From: a virus
IMG/VR virus record: IMGVR_UViG_3300032898_000006
Coordinates: 1-58,160 of that record
DNA: 58,160 bases
Strand: one strand, 5' to 3'
Of this stretch, positions 7,521-47,901 are shown piece after piece. Below the pieces are notes generated by a model that had not been told where the DNA came from, did not search any database, and was given only the letters and a program-made list of their open reading frames with translations. Within the stretch, counting starts at the first letter, position 1. Each line of letters begins with the position of its first letter. The position numbers were made by a program, and so were the translations under genes.

Positions 7521-7875
7521 CGACAGGCTTACCGCCGAGCGCGCCGATGAGGAGATCATCGCCCTGTGCACCCTGCAGTTCTCCTGGGGCGGCCTGCTCG
7601 ACTGGCGGCCGGCTGACGACGGGTACGCCGTCCACCTGATCCGCGAGACGCGCAGGGGGACGCCAGGGCCGACGCTGTGCGGCATCGGCCGGTTCGACAA
7701 GAACGGCCCAGGGTGGTCGGTCGGCGGGGGGATCTCCGGCCCGGACATCATCCACAAGCCGTGCCCCGGGTGCGCGGGCACGGCACGCGAGCAGTTCCCC
7801 GGCCTGCCGGTGACCGGCAGCGTGGGGGCGCGGGAGATGGCGGCTGAGCTCGGCGTGGCGGTGAGCCGTGGCTGA
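7510..7875 (+). CDS. Hypothetical protein (121 aa)
   Basis: Beta-rich protein with a central HLIRETRRGTPGPTLCGIGR segment and a later KPCPGCAGT CxxC. The H...C...CxxC order resembles short zinc-binding proteins common in actinobacterial mobile DNA. Function unknown. Confidence 0.55.
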   Translation: MASDDRLTAERADEEIIALCTLQFSWGGLLDWRPADDGYAVHLIRETRRGTPGPTLCGIGRFDKNGPGWSVGGGISGPDIIHKPCPGCAGTAREQFPGLPVTGSVGAREMAAELGVAVSRG

Positions 7876-10188: not shown

Positions 10189-10369
10189 AGTAACTCTCAC
10201 CTGCGTGAGCGCCGAGGACGCGCGGATCGTCGCGGCCGAGGCGAACAAGGACGGCGATCCGGCGCACCGGTCGAAAGCGCCCTGCAGAAACCCCCTTGCA
10301 GGTCACAGGAGGATAGGAAGTTATGGAGCAGATCTCGAAGCGGCTGTTCAATTGGGCGTCGATCCTTGA
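10181..10369 (+). CDS. Small hypothetical protein overlapping rtcB start
   Basis: GTG at 10181 is coupled to the upstream stop. The first 30 residues (MAEVTLTCVSAEDARIVAAE) look coding; the rest less so. The frame runs 47 nt into rtcB, which itself has a strong ribosome-binding site, so the true 3' end may differ from what was made in the ancestor. Confidence 0.35.
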   Translation: MAEVTLTCVSAEDARIVAAEANKDGDPAHRSKAPCRNPLAGHRRIGSYGADLEAAVQLGVDP

Positions 10370-11525
10370 GCCGAACACCCGCGAGCAGGCGGAGCGGACC
10401 GCGTCGATGCCGTTCATCTGGCCGCACCTCGCACTGATGCCGGACGCCCATCTCGGCAAGGGCGCGACCGTCGGGTCGGTCATCCCGACGCTCGGCGCGA
10501 TCATCCCCGCCGCGGTGGGAGTGGACATCGGGTGCGGAATGTGCGCCGTCCGCACCCAGCTCACCGCCGAGGACGTGCGAAGCCGCGGGAACCTCGCCGC
10601 GCTGAGGGAGTCGATCGAGAAGGCGATCCCGCTGTCGGCCGGCCACTACAACACGGCGCTGCGGGACAGCGAGACCGAGAGGCGCGTCGGCGAGTTGTTC
10701 ATGCTGGACGGCGCCTGGTCCGCGGAGAGCATCGCGCCGAACTGGAGCCTGCAACTCGGCTCGCTCGGATCGGGGAATCACTTCATCGAGATCTCTCTCG
10801 ACGAGCTCGACCGCGTATGGCTGTTCCTGCACAGCGGAAGCCGCGGGGTCGGCAACAAGCTGGCCGTCAAGCACATCAAGATCGCCCTCGAGCAGTGCGA
10901 GCGCCGGTGGATCACCCTTCCCGATCCCGATCTCGCCTACCTGGTCGAGGGCGACCTGCAGTTCTCCGAGTACCTCTGCGATCTCCGCTGGGCGCAGCAT
11001 TTCGCGCTCCTGAACCGCGAGGAGATGATGCACCGGGTCATCGGCTGCGTCGCCGATTGGTCCGGCGAAACCGCGCAGCAGCTGGAGACGGTCAACTGCC
11101 ACCACAACTACACCGAGCAGATGTCCGGCGACCTGCTCGGCCAGTGGAAGCGGCCGAAGAACGCGCACGGCCACGTGTGGCTATCCCGCAAGGGCGCGAT
11201 CGACGCCACCGAGGGCACGCCGGGCCTGATCCCCGGATCCATGGGCACCCGTTCCTACGTGGTCGAGGGGCGCGGCAACCCGCTCTCGCTCAACTCCTCG
11301 CCGCACGGCGCAGGCCGCGAGTACAGCCGCTCAGCGGCGCGTAAGACGTTCACCCGCGAGCAACTCGACGAGGCGATGAGCGGCATCGAGTGGGGCCGCT
11401 CCGACGCCTTCCTCGACGAGATCCCCCGGGCCTACAAAGACATAGATGTTGTGATGGCCGACGCCGCGAGCCTCGTCGAGATCAAGCACACGCTGCGGCA
11501 GATCATCAACGTAAAGGGCGACTAG
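10323..11525 (+). CDS. rtcB: RtcB-type RNA ligase
   Basis: RtcB joins RNA 2',3'-cyclic phosphate (or 3'-phosphate) and 5'-OH ends using GTP and Mn2+, repairing cleaved tRNAs and other RNAs. All signature blocks are present in order: PDAHLGKG (Asp/His metal ligands, about residue 41), VGVDIGCGM (metal-binding Cys, about 71), GSGNHF (about 150), LHSGSRG (about 170), CHHNY (about 260), LSRKGA, PGSMGTRSYVV, SSPHGAGR (guanylylated His near 328) and C-terminal IINVKGD (Lys). The length of about 400 is normal for a bacterial/phage RtcB. An AGGAGG-like site precedes ATG 10323. It closes the early operon. A Ro60 gene with Y-like RNAs lies 12 kb downstream, paralleling bacterial rsr-yrl-rtcB loci. Confidence 0.95.
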   Translation: MEQISKRLFNWASILEPNTREQAERTASMPFIWPHLALMPDAHLGKGATVGSVIPTLGAIIPAAVGVDIGCGMCAVRTQLTAEDVRSRGNLAALRESIEKAIPLSAGHYNTALRDSETERRVGELFMLDGAWSAESIAPNWSLQLGSLGSGNHFIEISLDELDRVWLFLHSGSRGVGNKLAVKHIKIALEQCERRWITLPDPDLAYLVEGDLQFSEYLCDLRWAQHFALLNREEMMHRVIGCVADWSGETAQQLETVNCHHNYTEQMSGDLLGQWKRPKNAHGHVWLSRKGAIDATEGTPGLIPGSMGTRSYVVEGRGNPLSLNSSPHGAGREYSRSAARKTFTREQLDEAMSGIEWGRSDAFLDEIPRAYKDIDVVMADAASLVEIKHTLRQIINVKGD

Positions 11526-14172: not shown

Positions 14173-14462
14173 GAGGGGCAGTTCGTAGGCCGGGGTGCTC
14201 GCGACCAAGCGGGGACTCCCCTCGGCCGCCGACTGCTCGCCTCGCTTAGCGGGGACTGGCGCCACGGCCGCTATCCCTCCCGTCACTCGCGTTCTGGGGA
14301 GATCCTGGGGACGACATCGCCTCGGAGCGCCCCGGAACGCACGGGAGCGCCCCGGAACGCGCATCGGCTACCTGGACGACCGAACACGCAGCGTTGTCAC
14401 CTGCGACAACCTCCCGGGATTTTTTCGCGGACCCCCTTGTACTGGCGAAGGGGGTTGGTATC
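14173..14462. other. Gene-free region beside integrase; candidate attP/arm-site zone
   Basis: About 290 nt without a supported gene. It contains a 17-bp direct repeat (14324-14340 and 14344-14360), a stretch GATTTTTTCG, and a 7-bp hairpin CCCCCTT/AAGGGGG. Direct repeats next to a tyrosine integrase are the expected form of arm-type sites, but the attachment core cannot be identified without the host junctions. Confidence 0.4.
14324..14360. repeat. 17-bp tandem direct repeat
   Basis: GGAGCGCCCCGGAACGC occurs at 14324-14340 and again at 14344-14360, a 20-bp period. Confidence 0.85.
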
Positions 14463-16148
14463 TCACGCACGACTGTCCCGCCGCAGGTCAAGCCCGGTTC
14501 GAGTCGGGAGGGAAACCACCGCATTGTCATGATCTGGTGAGATTCTGGAGACCGGTTTGATTTTCCGGGCCTCCGCGCGCTCGAGAAGCATCGCGTCGAG
14601 GACCGCGACGGGGGAGCGGGGCGACAGCGCGAGGCGCGCGTCGAGCGCCCTCTCGTGCTCCGCGGCCATCATCGCGGCGAGCTCCTCCCTCATGTTGCCG
14701 GTCACGTGACGGTAGGCTCCCGACACCCCGGGGATGTCGTGCCGCAGGTGCGTCTCGGCCATGATGTGCGGGATCCGGTTCCCCTCCATCAGCGTCCGCA
14801 TCGAGTGCCGGGCCATCAGGTGCGGGGTCAGGCCCGGGGCGACCGGCTCCCACCGCACCGTGGCCCGGCTGATCGCCCGCGGCCCGCGCAGCCGGGTCCC
14901 CGGCCACTCGCCGCCGAGCGGCACCGGCCGCTTCGGCAGCCCCCGCCCGGCCGGGGGCAGCTCGCCGGTCGCCGCGGCCTTCACGATGCCCTCGAACGCG
15001 CTGCTGCGCCAGTGCCACGCCGGGTCCGCAGCCAGGGCGCGGCGGGCGAAGCCGGTCGCCGCCGCGGTCTCCTCGACCCGCTTGCGCGCCGCCGCCGATA
15101 TCCCGGCCGCGCCCGTCAGCGCCTTCCGCGCGGTGGTCGGCGACACGCCCGCGATCGCCGCCACGTCGGCGAGGGTCACGGCGCCGGCCGGGGCCCGCCC
15201 GCCGGCGGGGACGCCGAACCCCCGGAACAGGTAGGCGAACCCGTGGCACGGGCACTTACGGGCCGGGCGGGACGCGGCGAACGCCTCGAGCATCGCCGTC
15301 ATGAACGGGGCGAGGATCACGTCCCCGAACGAGTTGTCCTTCGGCGGGCAGCGCAGCAGGCCCCCGGGCGCCTCCGCCCGCATCGTCGCCGCGACGTCCG
15401 TCTCGCCCTCCCTCGCCTGCTGGAGGTCGAGCTGGTGCAGCTGCCACTCCACCCGCAGCCCCTCCGGCCGGAGGTACCGCCGCTCGAGGCCGATGAGCTC
15501 GCCTAGGCGCAGCGCCCCCCAGAACGACGCCTGGCCCATCACGAACTCCTGGTCCTGGCCGGTGAGGATCGCCATCCGCTCGGATATCAGGAGCACGCCA
15601 AGGGCGTCGGTGAACGGCTTCTCCGGGCCGCGGCCCTTGCCCTTGTCCGCCCGCTTGCCGCGGTTCCCCTTCCGGCGCGCCGGGTTCTGGCTAATGATCT
15701 CGGGCACCGCGTCCTCGAGGCAGGTGTGAAGGGTGCCGCGCCAGGTGGCGATGCTCGCGGGCATCTTGCCCCCCTTGCGCTCTTTCATCTCCCAGGCGCC
15801 GATCATCGCCTCGGTGATGTCGGCCAGGCGCACCGCGCCGAACTCCCTGAGGAGGTGATCGTCTAGGTGCCGCCTGCGACCCGCCATCGTCGACCAGGCC
15901 AGGTTCAGCCCCCCGTACCATTCCTCGGCCCACTCGGCGAAGGTCATCTCGGACGCCGGCTTGACAACCCGGCCGTTGCGGACGTCGGACTGACTGTCCT
16001 CGGCGGCGTTCTTCGCGTCCTGCTTGAGGGAGAACCGGATGACGTCGCCGTTCCCGTCGCGGACGCTGACCCAGCCCCCGGCCGCGTCCCTGTACCGGCC
16101 CCGCCAGTAGTCGCCCCTCGGGGACGGCACTCTCTCCGCGTACGCCAT
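14463..16148 (-). CDS. int: Tyrosine integrase with inserted LacI-type HTH
   Basis: Serves phage integration at an attachment site. The 561-residue product has an N-terminal AP2-like DNA-binding region, a SAM-like core-binding domain (TFAEWAEEWYGG onward), and a catalytic domain with R214 (GALRLGELIGL), H443 and R447 (HLMARHS) and Y479 (SGAYRHVT). Between the first Arg and the HxxR box lies a complete LacI-family helix-turn-helix (residues about 324-375: VTLADVAAIAGVSPTTARKA, then ISAAARKRVEETAAATGFAR). The gap between the two boxes is about 230 residues, roughly 100 more than usual. Start at 16148 shares one base with the repressor stop (TGATG), so repressor and integrase are co-transcribed. 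Confidence 0.9.
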   Translation of the reverse strand: MAYAERVPSPRGDYWRGRYRDAAGGWVSVRDGNGDVIRFSLKQDAKNAAEDSQSDVRNGRVVKPASEMTFAEWAEEWYGGLNLAWSTMAGRRRHLDDHLLREFGAVRLADITEAMIGAWEMKERKGGKMPASIATWRGTLHTCLEDAVPEIISQNPARRKGNRGKRADKGKGRGPEKPFTDALGVLLISERMAILTGQDQEFVMGQASFWGALRLGELIGLERRYLRPEGLRVEWQLHQLDLQQAREGETDVAATMRAEAPGGLLRCPPKDNSFGDVILAPFMTAMLEAFAASRPARKCPCHGFAYLFRGFGVPAGGRAPAGAVTLADVAAIAGVSPTTARKALTGAAGISAAARKRVEETAAATGFARRALAADPAWHWRSSAFEGIVKAAATGELPPAGRGLPKRPVPLGGEWPGTRLRGPRAISRATVRWEPVAPGLTPHLMARHSMRTLMEGNRIPHIMAETHLRHDIPGVSGAYRHVTGNMREELAAMMAAEHERALDARLALSPRSPVAVLDAMLLERAEARKIKPVSRISPDHDNAVVSLPTRTGLDLRRDSRA

Positions 16149-16657
16149 CAGCCGCCGCCTTTCTCGTCGCGCTCCCTGATCCTGTCCGCCTCGGCGAGCG
16201 CGAGCTCGGCCGTGCAGTCCTCGATGTCCTCGGCGATCCCGCGGGCGGCCTCGGCGACGCGGGGGAACTCCGACTTCGCGCCGCGCTCCGCGGTGCGCGC
16301 GGCCGCGTCGCGGGCGTCGTCGAGCCGCGCCTTGGCGAGGGCGAGCTCGCGCCACGCCCCGCGAAGCCGGGCGGAGGCGGCGGCGGCCATCTCCCGCTCC
16401 GCCGCCTCCGGGGCCGACCAGGTGAAGCGGTCCGTCGTCACTCCGAGGATCGCCGCGAGGGCCATCGCCTCGTAGAAGGAGACGGACCGGTCGCCCGCCT
16501 CGACTCTGGTGACCGTGTTCTGGTGCCACGGGTAGCCCTGCGCGGCCATGCGCGCGGCGAGTTCCCGCTGGCCCATGCCGCGCCGCTCGCGGGCGGCGCG
16601 GAGGTTCTCGCCGAACGCCTTCTTCTCCGCGAGGAGCCGCTCGTCATCCGATGACAT
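16148..16657 (-). CDS. XRE-family repressor (CI-like)
   Basis: 169 residues. The N-terminal HTH reads FGENLRAARERRGMGQRELA, then ARMAAQGYPWHQNTVTRVEA; the remainder is a helical, charged domain suited to oligomerisation rather than a peptidase-type domain. Divergent from the Cro-like gene and in front of the integrase, the standard immunity arrangement. A minus-strand TAATGT ends 7 nt before the ATG, so the message is predicted leaderless, as for many lysogenic repressors. Confidence 0.8.
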   Translation of the reverse strand: MSSDDERLLAEKKAFGENLRAARERRGMGQRELAARMAAQGYPWHQNTVTRVEAGDRSVSFYEAMALAAILGVTTDRFTWSAPEAAEREMAAAASARLRGAWRELALAKARLDDARDAAARTAERGAKSEFPRVAEAARGIAEDIEDCTAELALAEADRIRERDEKGGG

Positions 16658-16740
16658 GGATCAGACATTACATCGTTATGTGTTCACCACGCATACCGAA
16701 ATGGGATTAGTATCCTCAGTTGTGGTCGGAGGTGATCCTA
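16658..16740. promoter_or_regulatory. Divergent immunity-region promoters
   Basis: Leftward: TAATGT (16670-16665) 7 nt before the repressor ATG, with TGCGTG 17 bp upstream. Rightward: TAGTAT (16708-16713) ahead of a strong GGAGGTGA ribosome-binding site for the Cro-like gene. Between them is a dyad ACAT-CGTT-ATGT (16669-16680) and a looser ATGTG...CGCAT dyad (16678-16694), possible operators. Confidence 0.55.
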
Positions 16741-16985
16741 TGACGATATCGGCGGACAGCGCCGTGACGCTAGCGCGCCTGCGCGCAGATGTGGCCAGCG
16801 GCAGGGCCAAGGAGGTCCGGGAACGGGCCCGCCTGTCGCAGGCGGAGGTCGCCAAGGCAGTGGGAGTGACTCAGCCGACGGTGGCCGGCTGGGAGGCGGG
16901 ACGGAAGATGCCGCACGGCGAGCGCGCCGCCCGGTACGCGGACCTGCTCGCGCGACTCGAGCAGGCAGAGCAGGAGGAGCAATGA
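16741..16985 (+). CDS. XRE-family Cro-like regulator
   Basis: 81 residues. HTH at about 25-60: RERARLSQAEVAKAVGVTQP, then TVAGWEAGRKMPHGERAARY. Start at 16741 is set by GGAGGTGA 5 nt upstream. First rightward gene from the immunity region, so expected to oppose the repressor. Overlaps the Xis-like gene by 4 nt. Confidence 0.8.
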
Positions 16986-17275
16986 CGACGGCAAGGCCAT
17001 CCCCGGAGGAACTCGCCGCAGTCGGCGCCCCGGTTCACTACACGCCCGCCGAGGCGGCGGCCATTCTCGACCCCTCGGGGAAGACGACCGGCTACTGGCT
17101 GCTCAAGCGGGCGCGGAGCGGCCTGTTCCCGTGCACGCGGGTCGGCCGGTCGATCGTGTTCTCCCCGGCGAACCTCGCCGAGATCGCCAGGGGCCTGAAC
17201 AAGCCGGCCGCGCCGCGCACCATCGCGACGGCGGCCTCGAGGTCCAAGCAGCAGAAAAGGCGGAGCGCCGCGTGA
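16982..17275 (+). CDS. Excisionase-like HTH protein
   Basis: 97 residues with a small winged HTH of the excisionase/MerR type: YTPAEAAAILDPSGKTTGYW, then LLKRARSGLFPCTRVGRSIV (recognition and wing) and FSPANLAEIARGL. The tail is basic (KQQKRRSAA). Position right after the Cro-like gene suits a directionality factor for the integrase. It could alternatively be a transcription regulator. Confidence 0.7.
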   Translation: MTTARPSPEELAAVGAPVHYTPAEAAAILDPSGKTTGYWLLKRARSGLFPCTRVGRSIVFSPANLAEIARGLNKPAAPRTIATAASRSKQQKRRSAA

Positions 17276-17403
17276 ACACTCCCACCCTTCCCAACGACGA
17301 CGACACGCTCCCGAACCCCTGGCGACTGGGGCAGCGCCCGGTACGCCGGGCCGAAGACGGGCGATCCCGGTTCCGGACGCGGCTCCCTCGAGAGGCGGCC
17401 GTC
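17272..17403 (+). pseudogene. Duplicated, frameshifted leader of the GT gene
   Basis: From GTG 17272 the frame reads MNTPTLPNDDDTLPNPWRL, nearly the same as the start of the downstream glycosyltransferase (NAPTLPNDDTVPNNWRL). The homology continues only after a frame change: RYAGPKTGD in another frame matches RAYTGPHTGQQ there. It thus looks like a decayed copy of that leader. It stays open in frame with the GH12-like gene, so it might also serve as an N-terminal extension. Confidence 0.5.
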
Positions 17404-18234
17404 ATGATCCGCCGGGCCCTCGCCCCGCTGGCCGCGCTCGCCGCCGCCGGCGCGCTGTTCCTCGCCCCGGCCGCGTCCGCGGCGGTCACCCCCGCCGGCG
17501 GCGTCGCCCTCTGGAACCGCCCCGTCTGCGGCGCCGAGTACGTCCCGATCGACATGGGCGCAGGCGACTACTTCAACGTCTACAACGAGCAGGACGGCCG
17601 GTCCTGCGTCTCGGCCGAGGAGCACCACCTCAGCTTCGAGGTCACCTCCCGCGGCGGCTCCGTCAAGGGCTGGCAGTACCCGAACATCAGCAGCGGCTGG
17701 GAGTGGGGCCGCTACACCTGCGCTGACGGGCGATCGGCCTACCCGGCCTCGCCCGGGTCGCAGTGCATGCGCTACCCGGTGCAGGAGAAGGCCGACGGCA
17801 CGCCGCTGACCTCGGTGACGTACTTCCCGCACCTCGCGGCCGGCAACGTCAGCTACGACATCTGGTTCAACCGGACGGACTCCGCGCCGGGCCAGGACGA
17901 CGGCACCGAGGTCATGATCTGGCTCGCGCACCCCGGGGTGAGCATCCCGGCCCGGTCCGTCTGCTGGGACGCCACCATCGGGGGCGTGAAGTACGAGGCG
18001 ATGTGCTGGACGGCGCGCAACGGCGCGACCAGCTGGAACTACGTCGCGTACGTCGCCGTCAGGCAGACCGCGACGCTGCCGCCGACCTGGCTGAACGGCT
18101 TCTTCCGGAACGCCATCAGCCACGGGAAGCTCAGCCCCGACTGGTGGCTGACCGGGATCGATTTCGGGAGCGAGATGAACAGCGGCGGGACCGGGTTCGC
18201 CGTCAAGACCTACATGCTCAAGGACGTGCGATGA
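17404..18234 (+). CDS. Secreted GH12-like glycoside hydrolase
   Basis: 276 residues with a Sec signal peptide (MIRRALAPLAALAAAGALFL, cleavage after the ASA box). The mature part fits family GH12 (endo-beta-1,4-glucanase/xyloglucanase jelly-roll): EVMIWLAHPG with probable nucleophile E169, SWNYVAYVAV, and GIDFGSEMNSGGTG with probable acid/base E257. Its stop overlaps the glycosyltransferase start (ATGA), so the two are coupled. Likely acts on a glucan outside the membrane, perhaps trimming the product of the neighbouring synthase. GH12 assignment is by motif. Confidence 0.75.
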   Translation: MIRRALAPLAALAAAGALFLAPAASAAVTPAGGVALWNRPVCGAEYVPIDMGAGDYFNVYNEQDGRSCVSAEEHHLSFEVTSRGGSVKGWQYPNISSGWEWGRYTCADGRSAYPASPGSQCMRYPVQEKADGTPLTSVTYFPHLAAGNVSYDIWFNRTDSAPGQDDGTEVMIWLAHPGVSIPARSVCWDATIGGVKYEAMCWTARNGATSWNYVAYVAVRQTATLPPTWLNGFFRNAISHGKLSPDWWLTGIDFGSEMNSGGTGFAVKTYMLKDVR

Positions 18235-19883
18235 GCGGCGCCGGGGGGAGCAGCGTGAACGCTCCGACGCTTCCGAACGACGACACCGTGCCGAACAACT
18301 GGCGGCTAAGGGAGCGCGCGTACACCGGGCCCCATACCGGGCAGCAGCTCGCCGCCATCGACATGCTCGAGGAAATAGCGAGAGCTCAGGCAGTACACGC
18401 CACGACCGAGCTCCCGCATTACGACGGGCCGAGGACGGGGGATCAGCTCGCGCTCCTCGGAACCGGCGAGCGGGGCGCGATCGAGGCAGCGGAGCGGGAG
18501 ATGGCCCCGCGAGGGCGAGGCGCGCATTCCCGGGGTCCGTCGCGACGGAAGCCGTTCCCGTGGGACGACCTCAAGCACCGGGCGCTTGTCGTTGCGGTGA
18601 CCGTGGTCTGCGTCGCCGCGCTCTGGCTGGTGCAGGATTACGCGTGGCCGGGGAAGCCGAGACTGCACGGCACGTTCGCCGAAGTATGGACGTGCACCGG
18701 GCTGCTTTGGCTGGCGCCGCTGCCGGCGTCCGTCTTCAACCTGGTTGGGCTGTTCTGCTACAGGCCCTCGCGGAACCGGCAGAGGGCCGCGGCGATTCCG
18801 CAGGTCGTATGCTGGCGGATCGTCTCCAAGGGGACGAACACGGAGGCGCTGGCCGCGACGATCCGGCGCTGCCGGACGGAGATGAGGGCGGCGCCACTGT
18901 TCCGGTACGTCATCGAGGTCGTCACGGACGTCGAGAACCCGCTGCTGCCGCGCGGGCCGGACGTCGCATACCTGGTCGTCCCCGAGTGGTACCAGACGTC
19001 GAAGGGCTCCCGGTTCAAGGCCCGGGCGCTGCAGTACGCCCTTGAGCACTCGCCGCTGGCCGATGACGCCTGGCTCGTTCATCTTGACGAGGAGTCGCAG
19101 CCGGTGCCGTCCGGAATCCGGGGAATCGCCCGCATGATCGCCGAGGAGGAGGCCACGGGCCGGCTGCGCATCGGCCAGGGCGCGATCGTGTACCACCGGA
19201 AATGGAAGCAGCACCCGTTCCTGACGCTGGCGGACATGCCACGGACGGGGGACGACCTCGGCCGCTTCTACCTCGCCTACCGCAGCGGCGTCACGCTCTT
19301 CGGCATGCACGGGTCGTTCATCGTCGTCCGCAACGACGTCGAGAAGGCCGTCGGGTTCGATTTCGGGCCCGTGGGGTCGATGACCGAGGACGCGTACTGG
19401 GCGCTCTGCGCGATGGAACTGGGTTACCGGTGCCGATGGGTCGACGGCTTCCTCGAGGAGCAGTCGACGCAGGGCATCATGGACTTCCTCAAGCAGCGCC
19501 GCCGCTGGTTCCAGGGCATCGTGAAGGTGTGCCTGCACGCGCCTACGAAGCTCCGCTGGCGGGTGACCTTCGGGGTCAGCACGCTGCTGTGGGCTCTCGC
19601 GCCGCTCGGGATGGCGTACACGCTCGCGCACCTGGTCGTCGGCGGCGGAGTCGGCCCCGCGGTGAAGGTGCTCGCCGACGTGGCCCTGGCGGGCTGCGTC
19701 ACGATCCAGTTTGTAGGGCTGCAGGTGAACCTCGACGAGCACGGGATCATCGAGCGGCCGAGGCGTTTCCTCTGGTACGCCCTGTCCCTGCTGAGCATCC
19801 CGGCCGCCGGGCTGCTGGAGGCGGCCAGCGTCGCGTACGCCATCATCAGGCCGAGCAGCGGCTTCCACGTGGTGGAGAAGTGA
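18231..19883 (+). CDS. Membrane GT2 glycosyltransferase, Egghead-like
   Basis: 550 residues. An Asn/Pro-rich cytoplasmic leader contains a repeated YxGPxTG motif. Then come two TM segments (about 117-140 and 155-175), a GT2 catalytic domain with LDEES (D286, donor/metal site), TEDAYWA (E386, D387) and QRRRW (422-426), and three C-terminal TM segments. The HLDEES...TEDAYWA...FLKQRRRWFQG order is that of the Egghead/beta-mannosyltransferase branch of GT2, which is close to processive beta-glycan synthases. The donor sugar is not deducible. Flanked by two secreted beta-glycanase-like proteins, suggesting a polysaccharide-modifying conversion cassette. Confidence 0.85.
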   Translation: MSGAGGSSVNAPTLPNDDTVPNNWRLRERAYTGPHTGQQLAAIDMLEEIARAQAVHATTELPHYDGPRTGDQLALLGTGERGAIEAAEREMAPRGRGAHSRGPSRRKPFPWDDLKHRALVVAVTVVCVAALWLVQDYAWPGKPRLHGTFAEVWTCTGLLWLAPLPASVFNLVGLFCYRPSRNRQRAAAIPQVVCWRIVSKGTNTEALAATIRRCRTEMRAAPLFRYVIEVVTDVENPLLPRGPDVAYLVVPEWYQTSKGSRFKARALQYALEHSPLADDAWLVHLDEESQPVPSGIRGIARMIAEEEATGRLRIGQGAIVYHRKWKQHPFLTLADMPRTGDDLGRFYLAYRSGVTLFGMHGSFIVVRNDVEKAVGFDFGPVGSMTEDAYWALCAMELGYRCRWVDGFLEEQSTQGIMDFLKQRRRWFQGIVKVCLHAPTKLRWRVTFGVSTLLWALAPLGMAYTLAHLVVGGGVGPAVKVLADVALAGCVTIQFVGLQVNLDEHGIIERPRRFLWYALSLLSIPAAGLLEAASVAYAIIRPSSGFHVVEK

Positions 19884-33484: not shown

Positions 33485-34345
33485 TCAGCCGGTGCGGAAC
33501 GATGCAGTCGCATAGCAGAAAGCGCGCACATTCGCCCCGCCGGGCCCGCTGGCGACGACGTGAGCCGTGAACGCCTCGCCCTGCGGCAGCGACCCGCCCT
33601 CCCATGGCGCCGACGACCGGGCCGTGCGCGGGTAGGACGGGACCAGCGTCGACCGGTCGCACACCGCCCCGGCGTAGATGTAAATCGCGTACTCGGCGGG
33701 ATCGGGAAGGCCGGGGGTGCCGGGCGGCTCCCACTCGAGGCGGACCGATGTCCGCCCGCCGAACGCGCGCAGGCTCCGCGGCCTCCCGTACGTCGGGTCG
33801 GCCGGGGGCGGCGCAGGCTTCCCGGAGACCGCCTCGAGCCACGGGACGGAGAAGACGTCAACGTCGTACAGACCTGCGTCCCGCCACTGGACCCCGACGA
33901 CGGGGAACGGCCCGGACGCGTTCGCGACGAGGGCGACCGCCTCCGCCTCGGTGAGGCTGTAGTCCGCGATGATCAGCCCGGCCGACGTCACGCCCCCGGC
34001 GATGAACGCGTTGACGAGGCTCGTGACGCTGTCCATCGACGCGTACCCGGCGGGCCTCCGCTGGCCGGGGCGCTTGGCCGACTCCCAGTCCGCGAGCGCC
34101 CTCCGGTACCAGCCCGGGGCGTCAGCCGGGGTAGCCGCCCCGGACTCCACGTCGAGGACGTCGGCGGTCGGGTCGGCGGCGTCCGGGTCTTGGTCGACCC
34201 GCAGCGCCCCCGGGCGGGCCTTCCAGTCGGCGTCCGTCCAGATCACCCACGGGGAGCCCGTCGCGTAGCCCATCGCCTGCCCGGCCGGGAGAGACCCGAT
34301 GTTGCCGTGGGTTGCGTCGTAGCCGGGAGTCGTCGCGATGCTCAC
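33485..34345 (-). CDS. GH25/DUF1906-like glycosidase-fold protein
   Basis: 286 residues. Residues 1-165 read as a TIM-barrel of the GH25-like type: ATTPGYDATHGNIGSLP, VLDVESGAATPADAPGWYRR (with an Asp-x-Glu catalytic-like pair) and VVGVQWRDAGLYDVDVFSVP. A Pro-rich linker leads to a C-terminal beta domain resembling fibronectin III (SVRLEWEPPGTPGLPDPAEY). GTG start overlaps the channel gene end. Candidate endolysin or virion hydrolase; activity unproven. Confidence 0.6.
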   Translation of the reverse strand: MSIATTPGYDATHGNIGSLPAGQAMGYATGSPWVIWTDADWKARPGALRVDQDPDAADPTADVLDVESGAATPADAPGWYRRALADWESAKRPGQRRPAGYASMDSVTSLVNAFIAGGVTSAGLIIADYSLTEAEAVALVANASGPFPVVGVQWRDAGLYDVDVFSVPWLEAVSGKPAPPPADPTYGRPRSLRAFGGRTSVRLEWEPPGTPGLPDPAEYAIYIYAGAVCDRSTLVPSYPRTARSSAPWEGGSLPQGEAFTAHVVASGPGGANVRAFCYATASFRTG

Positions 34346-34710
34346 AGGCCATCCCCTTCGCCGCGCTCGGGGCGGCTCTCATCCCGGGCGGCTAGCGCCC
34401 GGTCAACGTGGTCGCCGACCTTCTCGGCGTGCCTGTCGAGTTGATGCCCGACGCGCTTGTGAACATGGGCGGCGGTCGCGGCCGCAAAGGACCCGCCGAG
34501 GCACGGGATCGCGGTCAGCATCATCACGACCGCCGCGATATGAGCCGCCCCGGTGCGGGGCGTCACGTCGCCGTACCCGACGGTGGACGCGGTCGCGACC
34601 GCCCAGTACAGCGCGAGCCAGAAGCTCACATGGTCCGTGAGGCTGAACGCGGCCGCCCCGCCGAGCACGCACGCGAGGGCTGCGGCGGCGAGGATCACTG
34701 CGCGCCTCAC
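34342..34710 (-). CDS. Two-TM potassium-channel-like protein
   Basis: 122 residues: TM1 (RAVILAAAALACVLGGAAAF), pore helix (FWLALYWAVATAS), selectivity filter TVGYGD, TM2 (IAAVVMMLTAIPCLGGSFAA), then a charged His-rich cytoplasmic tail (HVHKRVGHQLDRHAEKVGDH). The order and TVGYGD filter match minimal KcsA-type channels. Overlaps both neighbours by 4 nt, so it is translated with the GH25-like and membrane proteins. Possible roles: membrane depolarisation at lysis or superinfection effects (inference). Confidence 0.88.
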   Translation of the reverse strand: MRRAVILAAAALACVLGGAAAFSLTDHVSFWLALYWAVATASTVGYGDVTPRTGAAHIAAVVMMLTAIPCLGGSFAAATAAHVHKRVGHQLDRHAEKVGDHVDRALAARDESRPERGEGDGL

Positions 34711-44592: not shown

Positions 44593-47500
44593 TTATGACA
44601 TTCTAACCTTGACGCCCGCCTGCGGCAGGATCTTCGTGGCGACGGCCTTCCCGATCCTGTTCACTAGAATGTTCACGTCCGAGTCGGACATCACCGTGTT
44701 GCCGTAGACGTTGATGTTTATCACCGGCCCGCCCGTCCCTGCGCCCCCCGCGCCGCCGCCGGCGGCGCTGAGCGCGAGCCCGCCCAGGCTCCCGGACGTC
44801 CCCGTCGTCACCGACCCGGCGAGCGCGTGCGCCGCCGCGACGACCTCGCCCTTCCCGGCGGTGATCCCCTGCGCGAGCTTCCTCGCGATCGACTTCCCGG
44901 AGTTCGACGGGTCGCCCGCCCCCGACAGCGGCCCCTGCTTGGCCGGGGAGAACGGCAGGAACGACTTGATGGTCGACGCGACTGACCCGATCGCGTTGCC
45001 GATCGAGCCGATCATCGACTTGACCCCGTTGATCAGGCCCTGGATTATCTTCGCGCCGGCCGAGTACAGCAGGCTGCCCACGTCGCCGAGGGCGGACAGG
45101 ATCCGGCCGGGGATCGACTTGACGAACGACAGCATGTCGCCCGCCTCGTCGCGGACCGCGCCGGTCGCGTCGTCCCACCAGCCGCGGAACAGCGACCCGA
45201 GCTTCCCGAACCAGCCGAGTACCGAGCGTATTTCCGAGATGTCGCCGGTGATCAGGAATTTAACGTACGACCAGGCGGCGTTCACGATCTTCATGATCAG
45301 GGCGTGCGCCGCCCGGATATCGGAGGTTATGTTCGACCAGATGGCCTTGACGAAGGCCGTTATCCCGGACCAGGCGGCCTTCGCCCCGGCGACGATCGCG
45401 TCCCAGACGGCGACCGCCGCCTTCTCGATATCCGACCAGTACTTCACGATCAGGACGACCGCGGCGATCACCGCGAGGACGATCAGGCCTATCCCGAGGA
45501 GCATCGCCGCGTTCGCCGCGATCCACGCGGCCATCGTGATGGCCGCCCCGGCGACGTTGCTGGCGACGATCATCGCGACCTTCGCGATCGTCTGGGCCAC
45601 CCACACCGCCGCCCCGGCGACCTGCTGCGCCCCGGCCGCTATCCACGCCCCCGCGGTGGTAGCGGCGGCGGCCACGTTGGACGCGACGACCGACGCGACC
45701 TTGACGGCCTGCCCGGCTACCCATGACGCGGCCGAGGCGATCTGCCGCCCGGCGGCGGCGAGCCACGACGCGGACGACTCCGCGGCGGCCTCGTCGTTCG
45801 CGGCCGCCGCCTCCTCGGCGGCGCCCTCCTGGACGCCGGCGGCCTCGGTCGCGGCCTCCTCCTGCGCCGCCGCCGCGGACTCGGCCGAGGCGGCCTGCGT
45901 GCCGGCGGTCTCCTTGGAGATGATCCCGAGCGCCTTGAGAGTCGCCTGCACGGTTTTCACGGCGCCGCTGACCGCGTCGAAGGCCTTCTTCGCGATCGCG
46001 ATGACGGCGACCACGGCGGCGATCGCGGTGACGCTGGCGAAGATGACCTCGGTCAGGGTCTTGTGCTTCGCGGTCCACTCGGCGATCGGGATGATGACCT
46101 TCGTCACCGCCGACATGACGGCGGTCACCGCGGGCAGCAGGGCGGAGCCGATCGCGATGCCGGTGTTCTCGATGCCGGTCTTCGCCTGCGAGATCTTGAA
46201 GTTGAAGGTCCCCTGGATCGTCGACCAGTTGTCCACCTGGCCGCCGCTCTTCTTCGCCGCGTCGCCGATCACCTTCACGTTGTTCGCGAACGTCCCCGAC
46301 GACTTCCCCGACAGCATCAGCGCGGTGTTCAGCCCGGTGGCGCCGCCCATCATCTTCGCGAGCGCCGCGGTGTAGGTCTGCGCGGCGGGGCCGCCGGCGG
46401 TCAGCAGCGAGTTGAACCCGTGGGCCTTCCCCGCCACGGACGCGAACTGGTCGGCCATCGTCTTGGCGGTGAGCGGCAGCCCCTTGGTCGCGTTGTACCA
46501 GGTCGTGTAGCTGGTGCCGCCGTCGAGGTAGGACTTGGACACCGACTGGATCGACGGCGGCAGCTTCGCGAGCATGGTCTGCGCGTCCTGCGCCGCCGAC
46601 GTGCTCTGGTTGAACGCGTTCATCAGGACTTCGCCGGACTTGCCCATGTGGGTCGTGATGGCGGTGGTCAGCTCGCCGATCGTCCCGGTGAGCCCCTCCT
46701 TGCCGAGGTTCTTCGCGACGGTCTGGCTGTTCAGGCCGAGCTGGTTCATCTCGCCGATCGCGACCGAGTTCGGGTTCGACAGCGACCGGATGGTGTTCGC
46801 GAGGTCCTGCGTGGACTGCTGCGCGGACATCCCCTGCGACGTCATGGTCGCGATGGCGCCGCCGACCTGCGCGAAGCTCAGGCCGACCTTCGCCGCGAGC
46901 GGCGCCACCGACGACATCGACGACGCGAGGTCCTGCATCTTCATGTCGCCGGCGCCGACCGTCGCGATGATCTCGTTCATCATCGACGCGGACCGCTGGG
47001 TGGCGTTCGACGCGTTGGTCGTGGACCCGTAGTAGGCGTTCATCGTGCCGACGAGGGTCTTCGACACGGTGTCGAGGTCGGCGCCGCCGACTTTCGCGCC
47101 CTCCGCCGCTATCTTCAGCATGTCGAGGCCGGTCTGGGCGTGGAACCCGCCGGACTCGATGTGGTACATCGCGTTGGTGATGTCGCTGGCGCTGGTGGCC
47201 GTCGCGGTCGACACCTGCAGGATCCCGGCCTGCACCATGCCGAGCTTCGACGCGGACTCGCCCGCGTCGGTCACCAGGTGAGTCGTCGAGTCCTGGAAGT
47301 TGCCCGCGGCCTTGACCATGACCGCCGCGGCGACCCCGAGGCCGAGGGCGGTGATCCCGGCGACCTTCCCCATGGTGCCGAGGCTGATCCCGCCCGCGTC
47401 GGAGGCGTCCTTAACGGCGACGGTGCTGGCCGCCGCCTCGTCGTTCTTCGCCGCCGCCGCCACGGCGGTGTCGGACTGGACCTTCTGCGCGTCCGACACG

Positions 47501-47901
47501 GCCTTCGCCGCCACGGCGGCGTCCCGCTGCGCGGCGGTCAGCCGCCCGCTCGCGGCGATCAGCGCGTCAGTCGACGCCGTGTCGTCATCCGCCGCCCCGG
47601 CCGCCGCCCGCTGGGCGTCCAGCAAGGCCGTCTCCGCGTCCGCCAGGGCCTTAGCGGACTCGGCCGCCTTCGCCTGCGCGGCGTCCACCCGGGCCGTCGC
47701 CAGGTCCAGGGCGTCCGCCCCGGAGGCGGTATTCAGCAGCGACTCGTCGATCGCGTCGCCCGCGCCCCTGGCGGTCTCCGCCGCCTTCGTGGCGGACTCA
47801 CTGAACTTGCCGAGAGACTCGTCGATCTTCGCGAAGATCTCCGACGCCGCGTCCCTGGCCTCGAGGATCGCCAAAATCGTGAAGGACTCGGCGCCTGCCA
47901 C
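44593..47901 (-). CDS. Tape measure protein
   Basis: 1102 residues, the longest gene. The N-terminus is a long Ala/Asp coiled coil (about 20-170). Then comes a hydrophobic segment (VAGITALGLGVAAAVMVKAA) and the phage TMP core (STTHLVTDAGESASKLGMVQ; MYHIESGGFHAQTGLDMLKI; AAPLAAKVGLSFAQVGGAIA), an Ala-rich region with several TM-like helices around residue 800 (LLGIGLIVLAVIAAVVLIVK), and a C-terminal region with SIPGRILSALGDVGSLLYSA and FLPFSPAKQGPLSG. It sets siphovirus tail length. GTG start. Confidence 0.93.
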   Translation of the reverse strand: MAGAESFTILAILEARDAASEIFAKIDESLGKFSESATKAAETARGAGDAIDESLLNTASGADALDLATARVDAAQAKAAESAKALADAETALLDAQRAAAGAADDDTASTDALIAASGRLTAAQRDAAVAAKAVSDAQKVQSDTAVAAAAKNDEAAASTVAVKDASDAGGISLGTMGKVAGITALGLGVAAAVMVKAAGNFQDSTTHLVTDAGESASKLGMVQAGILQVSTATATSASDITNAMYHIESGGFHAQTGLDMLKIAAEGAKVGGADLDTVSKTLVGTMNAYYGSTTNASNATQRSASMMNEIIATVGAGDMKMQDLASSMSSVAPLAAKVGLSFAQVGGAIATMTSQGMSAQQSTQDLANTIRSLSNPNSVAIGEMNQLGLNSQTVAKNLGKEGLTGTIGELTTAITTHMGKSGEVLMNAFNQSTSAAQDAQTMLAKLPPSIQSVSKSYLDGGTSYTTWYNATKGLPLTAKTMADQFASVAGKAHGFNSLLTAGGPAAQTYTAALAKMMGGATGLNTALMLSGKSSGTFANNVKVIGDAAKKSGGQVDNWSTIQGTFNFKISQAKTGIENTGIAIGSALLPAVTAVMSAVTKVIIPIAEWTAKHKTLTEVIFASVTAIAAVVAVIAIAKKAFDAVSGAVKTVQATLKALGIISKETAGTQAASAESAAAAQEEAATEAAGVQEGAAEEAAAANDEAAAESSASWLAAAGRQIASAASWVAGQAVKVASVVASNVAAAATTAGAWIAAGAQQVAGAAVWVAQTIAKVAMIVASNVAGAAITMAAWIAANAAMLLGIGLIVLAVIAAVVLIVKYWSDIEKAAVAVWDAIVAGAKAAWSGITAFVKAIWSNITSDIRAAHALIMKIVNAAWSYVKFLITGDISEIRSVLGWFGKLGSLFRGWWDDATGAVRDEAGDMLSFVKSIPGRILSALGDVGSLLYSAGAKIIQGLINGVKSMIGSIGNAIGSVASTIKSFLPFSPAKQGPLSGAGDPSNSGKSIARKLAQGITAGKGEVVAAAHALAGSVTTGTSGSLGGLALSAAGGGAGGAGTGGPVININVYGNTVMSDSDVNILVNRIGKAVATKILPQAGVKVRMS

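Follow-up and report, generated by a model that had tools for sequence, protein, structure and literature searches.

A phage tyrosine integrase with a LacI-type helix-turn-helix inside its catalytic domain

The window, which is the whole of an IMG/VR virus record of a soil phage (58,160 bases, G+C 71%), encodes a tyrosine integrase whose catalytic domain is almost certainly interrupted by a LacI-type helix-turn-helix (HTH). The protein, which begins MAYAERV, is an integrase and not a LacI repressor, since the catalytic residues R-K-H-R-H-Y are invariant in its family, its gene belongs to a repressor-int/cro-xis module, and a recognizable attP adjoins it; recombination activity is predicted from the sequence. 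At least 18 further relatives, from phages and plasmids, have this architecture, which makes the internal HTH a real family trait. The features of the gene, its product and its surroundings are collected in Table 1.

Table 1. Coordinates of the integrase gene, the domains of its product, the neighboring genes and the att region in the window
Feature	Position	Strand	Remarks
Tyrosine integrase gene with internal LacI-type HTH	14463..16148	minus	561 aa; start ATG at 16148
N-terminal arm-binding-like beta-sheet domain, aa 1-60	15969..16148	minus	model: strands 3-7, 14-20, 26-28 and helix 42-57
Core-binding (SAM-like) domain, aa 69-160	15669..15944	minus	PF14659 at 69-118, below Pfam cut-off; 2kd1/2oxo Z 14-15
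Catalytic domain part 1, aa 180-310	15219..15611	minus	R214 at 15507-15509, K270 at 15339-15341; invariant alignment columns
N-side HTH linker, aa 311-323	15180..15218	minus	predicted disordered; pLDDT <50 at 312-321
LacI-family HTH headpiece, aa 324-367	15048..15179	minus	PF00356; helices 326-333, 337-345, 352-365; model pLDDT about 75-90
C-side HTH linker, aa 368-377	15018..15047	minus	predicted partly disordered; pLDDT <50 at 371-374
Catalytic domain part 2, aa 378-490	14679..15017	minus	H443-R447 at 14808-14822, H470 at 14739-14741, Y479 at 14712-14714
XRE-type repressor	16148..16657	minus	HTH_31/HTH_3, phrog_3; overlaps int start (TGATG)
Cro-like/XRE regulator, divergent	16548..16985	plus	HTH_3 1.5e-11 at residues 88-134
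Excisionase, 97 aa	16982..17275	plus	phrog_1840 1.4e-5; HTH_17 0.0005, below Pfam cut-off
Putative attP core block, just after int stop	14418..14453	minus	conserved in closest relatives
Putative left arm-type tandem repeat CTCCAGAATCTCACCAGA	14533..14550	minus	11-bp period; within int 3' end
Putative right arm-type tandem repeat CCCAGGATCTCCCCAG	14294..14309	minus	11-bp period
Inner motif TGACCTGC flanking core	14483..14490	minus	
Related motif, far side of core	14393..14410	minus	in 18-bp palindrome GTTGTCGCAGGTGACAAC

Both sequence and fold identify the integrase. The PHROG integrase family phrog_1 matches residues 10-227 (E 2.8e-22), in the same open frame as the LacI match. An AlphaFold2 model built on 20 family sequences (mean pLDDT 79, pTM 0.61) has a beta domain at its N terminus, followed by a core-binding bundle and then by the catalytic domain, which three helices interrupt. 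With VIA-align the model superimposes on Tn1549 Int (Z 17.4, residues 67-475, 282 residues, rmsd 3.4) and on lambda integrase (Z 15.4). Foldseek likewise matches the Tn1549 and lambda integrases, with the Lac repressor matched separately. The best viral fold match is the integrase of Mycobacterium phage DS6A. Lambda Int (1z1b_A) aligns from residue 1 of the window protein, and by this homology residues 1-60 are assigned an arm-binding-like role. Residues R214, K270, H443, R447, H470 and Y479 are invariant across 22 aligned sequences, R214 and the H443...R447 box lying where the preliminary description had put them. In the window clade (the window, L016, L017 and L018) the box is H443-LMA-R447, that is HxxxR, as against HxxR in all other aligned homologs; it is one residue longer, with H and R both kept (HLMARH, 14808-14822). 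The protein is thus like the Tn1549 and lambda integrases in its fold over residues 67-475 and in its catalytic R-K-H-R-H-Y, but in those enzymes the segment from the catalytic K to the H/R box contains no inserted DNA-binding domain.

The insertion point lies between catalytic K270 and the H443/R447 box, in the loop that leads from the strand YLFRG to the helix HWRRSGFA. The Pfam LacI model, PF00356, covers residues 325-367 and scores 27.7 bits, the cut-off being 27 (E 2.3e-6), and NCBIfam also labels this stretch a LacI-type HTH. The position given earlier was exact, residue 324 beginning at 15179 and residue 376 ending at 15021 on the minus strand. In the full-length model the HTH is a folded domain on low-confidence linkers, as the preliminary description required of it, and Foldseek aligns it to the Lac repressor with an rmsd of 0.8 over 48 columns (probability 1.00; E 0.06, for a short piece). 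When the HTH was modelled alone, the first 34 matches were all LacI-family headpieces (Z 9.1 to 5.8), and the best other fold had a Z of 4.2. The insert had been called a full LacI-family unit. The HTH is indeed intact, but by the models it is a three-helix headpiece only, without a recognizable hinge helix: no helix directly follows residue 365 in either the full-length or the HTH-alone model. In LacI the hinge helix forms only on DNA, and a LacI headpiece by itself, lacking both hinge helix and dimerization domain, binds DNA weakly. Compared with the LacI/GalR repressors (LacI, CytR, CcpA, PurR), the window HTH is alike in headpiece fold and sequence but is internal rather than N-terminal, as this unit normally is in repressors of sugar operons, has no clear hinge helix and is not joined to the effector/dimerization domain: no Pfam match to a periplasmic-binding-like domain was found in the window protein or its homologs, and outside the HTH the chain has the integrase fold.

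The insert as a whole comprises about 66 residues (312-377). Without them the window protein has 495 residues, which is the full length of L027, a homolog that lacks the HTH. The insert had been held to explain the extra ~100 residues. It explains part of the surplus over classic integrases; the rest comes from a loop of about 20 residues at 241-261, which is confined to the window clade, from enlargement of the loop that precedes box II, and from a tail at the C terminus.

Relatives were sought because a single marginal HMM score would be weak evidence. The alignment of 22 sequences consists of the window protein and 21 homologs, drawn from scans of viral contigs and from two plasmid matches. 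The HTH is at the identical position in 19 of the 22, at 32-91% identity to the window protein. The profile searches suggested in the preliminary description support the domain order: LacI PF00356 is found in 19 of the 22 (best 1.2e-17), Phage_integrase PF00589 in 16 and Phage_int_SAM_3 PF14659 in 17. Since the 19 score with the LacI HMM and the HTH is aligned at one place in all, the LacI match is not due to chance. In the three members without the HTH (L027, L028 and L029) the flanks are joined directly (YLFTTPG-GAHPRRSNF). The identity of the HTH, its location inside the catalytic domain and its integrity are thus borne out by the HMMs, by the clean insertion relative to these homologs and by a model that combines two separate known folds.

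In a tree calculated without the insert residues and rooted at its midpoint, the HTH-less members are on one side of a branch (support 88/74), a grouping that fits one gain or one loss. The insertion probably occurred once, in an ancestor of the phage lineage. Two plasmids share the architecture at 34-42% identity, pSITFR-21c of Streptomyces (L003 6001-7554) and phiM2 of Streptomonospora litoralis (L004 5965-7662), and their recognition helices are nearer the LacI-family norm than that of the window. Both records are phage-plasmid-like, and both integrases are named 'LacI family DNA-binding transcriptional regulator' at NCBI. Among the deposited phage genomes of the collection no homolog covering the whole architecture was found, and one scan of genome contigs gave only a 31%-identical integrase fragment from a Clostridia MAG. 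One loop further on, immediately ahead of box II, L028 (4950-6476) and L029 (4899-6503) have a different extra segment, some 50 residues long (NAASS.ALVAYA..QG...TR..ILD.F). A Pfam search with this segment gave no convincing match; it may be a second natural domain insertion, near the site where a zinc finger was engineered into Cre.

The sequences of the HTHs bear on whether they read DNA. The LacI contact residues T19, V/I20, S21 and N25 are kept, depending on the position, in 13-14 of the 19 HTHs, and the recognition helix is a near-constant T/V-G-T-V-S-N in most of them. In the window clade the recognition helix is altered (S21R, R22K, N25T/A), with S16 and T19 kept, and in L019 its contact residues are also replaced. 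The net charge of the HTH is +4 in the window, where R341/K342 lie in the recognition helix, and +2 to +5 in the window clade. For the HTH, pairwise dN/dS ranges from 0.16 to 0.45 among members of the window clade and from 0.11 to 0.24 among L024/L026/L020, close to that of the catalytic domain; the L008-L009 pair is an exception (0.6, eight changes). By these comparisons the HTH appears to be mostly under constraint like the rest of the protein. The constraint, together with the kept contact residues, indicates that the HTH is maintained, and it likely binds DNA across the family, less surely so in the window clade.

The genes around int form an integration/immunity module of the kind usual in a tailed temperate phage. 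The int ATG overlaps the stop codon of the repressor gene upstream (TGATG), and these two genes share one strand, with cro-xis divergent on the opposite one. The true start of the Cro-like regulator is probably inside the open reading frame listed in Table 1. A tape measure protein is encoded at 44593-47901. Lambda int adjoins xis and attP, and in the window an excisionase gene near int and an att-like region beside it, with a putative core, are both present.

In the relatives, the region 3' of int has an attP-like layout with tRNA-derived cores, arm repeats and an inner motif. ARAGORN identifies the core as tRNA-Pro CGG in L020 and as tRNA-Ala CGC in L030, and by their cores HTH-bearing members integrate at tRNA genes, as HTH-less relatives appear to do. 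Because tRNA-gene integration occurs with and without it, the HTH does not seem to give a different class of att site. In L019 a tRNA-Met gene (7681-7755) lies about 1 kb downstream of int. A T-loop-like sequence, TTCGAGTC, at the 3' end of the window int was considered as an att core and rejected, as it is absent from L017.

Two classes of motif were considered in the search for a site of the HTH. The arm repeats CCCAG-N6-CCCAG, with an 11-bp period, are present as exact copies in 8 of the 13 HTH-bearing members examined. The motif TGACCWG next to the core occurs 22 times in 4.8 kb of att regions and 94 times in 247 kb elsewhere (4.6 vs 0.38 per kb), a 12-fold enrichment. However, TGACCAG is also found in HTH-less L027/L028 and, in a related form, in the Streptomyces rimosus actinophage RP3, and the 11-bp tandem arms have counterparts in HTH-less members and RP3 as well. 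Given these counterparts, and given that the inner motif stays constant in spite of changes in the recognition helix, neither class is assigned to the HTH, and TGACCTGC was rejected as its binding site on the same grounds. A comparison of members having the canonical helix with the others, for dyads particular to the former, gave only the tRNA core above shuffles; with two HTH-less members having downstream DNA, this is a weak test. The palindrome GTTGTCGCAGGTGACAAC is identical in L017, has one change in L016 and is degenerate in L018. The att layout at 14250-14600 of the window (11-bp arms, TGACCTGC) resembles that of the distant phage RP3, where the integrase gene is likewise followed by an annotated attP core and is accompanied by a tandem repeat of 11-bp period and an inner motif of related sequence. 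The RP3 integrase is only a distant match to HTH-less L027 (25% identity over 73% of L027, E 5e-4). The likeness suggests an old att organization in these actinophage integrases.

What might the insert do? The reading that we prefer, at about even likelihood, is that the HTH makes an additional contact with DNA by which recombination is targeted or gated. An integrase of the lambda/Tn1549 type has a LacI headpiece inserted in the catalytic-domain loop before the H/R box. The attP that immediately follows int would still be recombined by the enzyme into a tRNA gene of the host, as the intact active site, the att anatomy and the adjoining xis and repressor genes lead us to infer. The tethered HTH would give the protein a further, sequence-specific hold on DNA, in cis with its active site. 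By this contact the Int tetramer would be steadied or gated, but only if a second DNA element lies close to the core or at some other position on the element. The place of the HTH in the catalytic domain and its flexible linkers fit such a tethered second contact. Its position, separate fold, contact residues and constraint, the active site and the att anatomy count in favor of this reading; the failure to find an HTH-linked motif, the changes of residues 21, 22 and 25 in the window clade, the weak DNA binding of a headpiece on its own and the L008-L009 dN/dS count against it. A more tentative extension is that the recombinase has become conditional on a second DNA element through the HTH, by which temperate actinobacterial phages would proofread att or link integration to an operator. 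The earlier proposals of an additional operator, of coupling recombination to transcription and of att-site choice are plausible.

A precedent for gating comes from engineered enzymes. In Cre-type recombinases, Mukhametzyanova et al. opened the chain between residues 278 and 279, just before the catalytic H289, and placed a zinc-finger domain there (PMC11631766). All Brec1 zinc-finger fusions were inactive on the plain target, and activity was restored with a finger site close by, the best spacing being 5 bp (PMC11631766). In Brec1-278-Zif268, as in the window protein, a sequence-specific DNA-binding domain sits on linkers within the catalytic domain, after K and ahead of the H/R box (PMC11631766). 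The engineered enzyme differs in being man-made, in using a zinc finger and in having the insertion 11 residues before H289; from the alignment, the window insert is probably one loop earlier. The precedent indicates that such an architecture can gate recombination, and only by analogy would it do so in the window.

It is unlikely, though worth weighing, that the integrase doubles as a transcription regulator which, independently of recombination, would bind an operator in the control region of repressor/int or of cro/xis and tune the expression of int itself or of the lysogeny genes. HTHs of the LacI type belong to transcription regulators, the int gene overlaps that of the XRE repressor and has cro-xis opposite it, and a recombinase fold has turned into a phage repressor elsewhere: MrpR, the SPbeta repressor, has a tyrosine-recombinase fold without the crucial recombinase residues (PMC10516654). 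SroF of phi3T is also among the fold matches, and in both MrpR and SroF the fold is tied to phage regulation. However, MrpR has lost most recombinase residues, whereas all are kept in the window protein, whose catalysis looks intact and which has a LacI HTH in addition. Also, no shared upstream motif was found above shuffles, and a monomeric headpiece requires a paired site or a partner.

Similarly improbable is that the HTH now has a structural role or one in binding proteins (another Int, Xis or a host factor), DNA reading having been lost at least in the window clade. In its favor, the contact residues are replaced in that clade and in L019, yet the HTH keeps its fold and its constraint; against it, the canonical residues are kept in the wider family, and the charge of +4 and R341/K342 in the recognition helix of the window speak for DNA. 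There is very little likelihood that the insert is a neutral passenger tolerated by the loop. Homologs without it exist, and Cre tolerates small insertions at many places (PMC11631766), but the 19 members keep it over deep divergence, with the fold intact and mostly purifying constraint. An assembly chimera or chance HMM match can be dismissed: although the window protein is just 0.7 bits over the Pfam cut-off, independent contigs at 75-91% identity and complete plasmids share the architecture, with LacI E-values to 1e-17.

No description of a LacI HTH within an integrase was found in the literature, of which coverage was partial, and we know of no characterized natural recombinase with a repressor headpiece inside its catalytic domain. 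Homologs are already in sequence databases under LacI-regulator names; some 'LacI regulators' of plasmids and phages are integrases, and such naming hides mobile elements and att sites from annotation. It is unusual for a recombinase to keep a repressor headpiece in its catalytic domain over deep divergence. Should the HTH gate recombination, the family would be a natural counterpart of the engineered domain-insertion recombinases, and its insertion point and linkers could be taken over ready-made in genome tools.

Other genes of the window also drew attention. Next to the excisionase gene, a glycosyl hydrolase family 12 match (17131-18234, plus strand, 4.8e-10) is followed by a family-2 glycosyltransferase (17763-19883, plus strand, 3.6e-20); these are possible carbohydrate cargo genes. 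An RtcB-like tRNA splicing ligase (phrog_1075, 4.5e-136) is encoded at 10323-11525 on the plus strand. At 34342-34710 on the minus strand is a short phage-encoded ion-channel protein (PF07885, 8e-14) with TVGYGD, a selectivity filter of the potassium-channel type.
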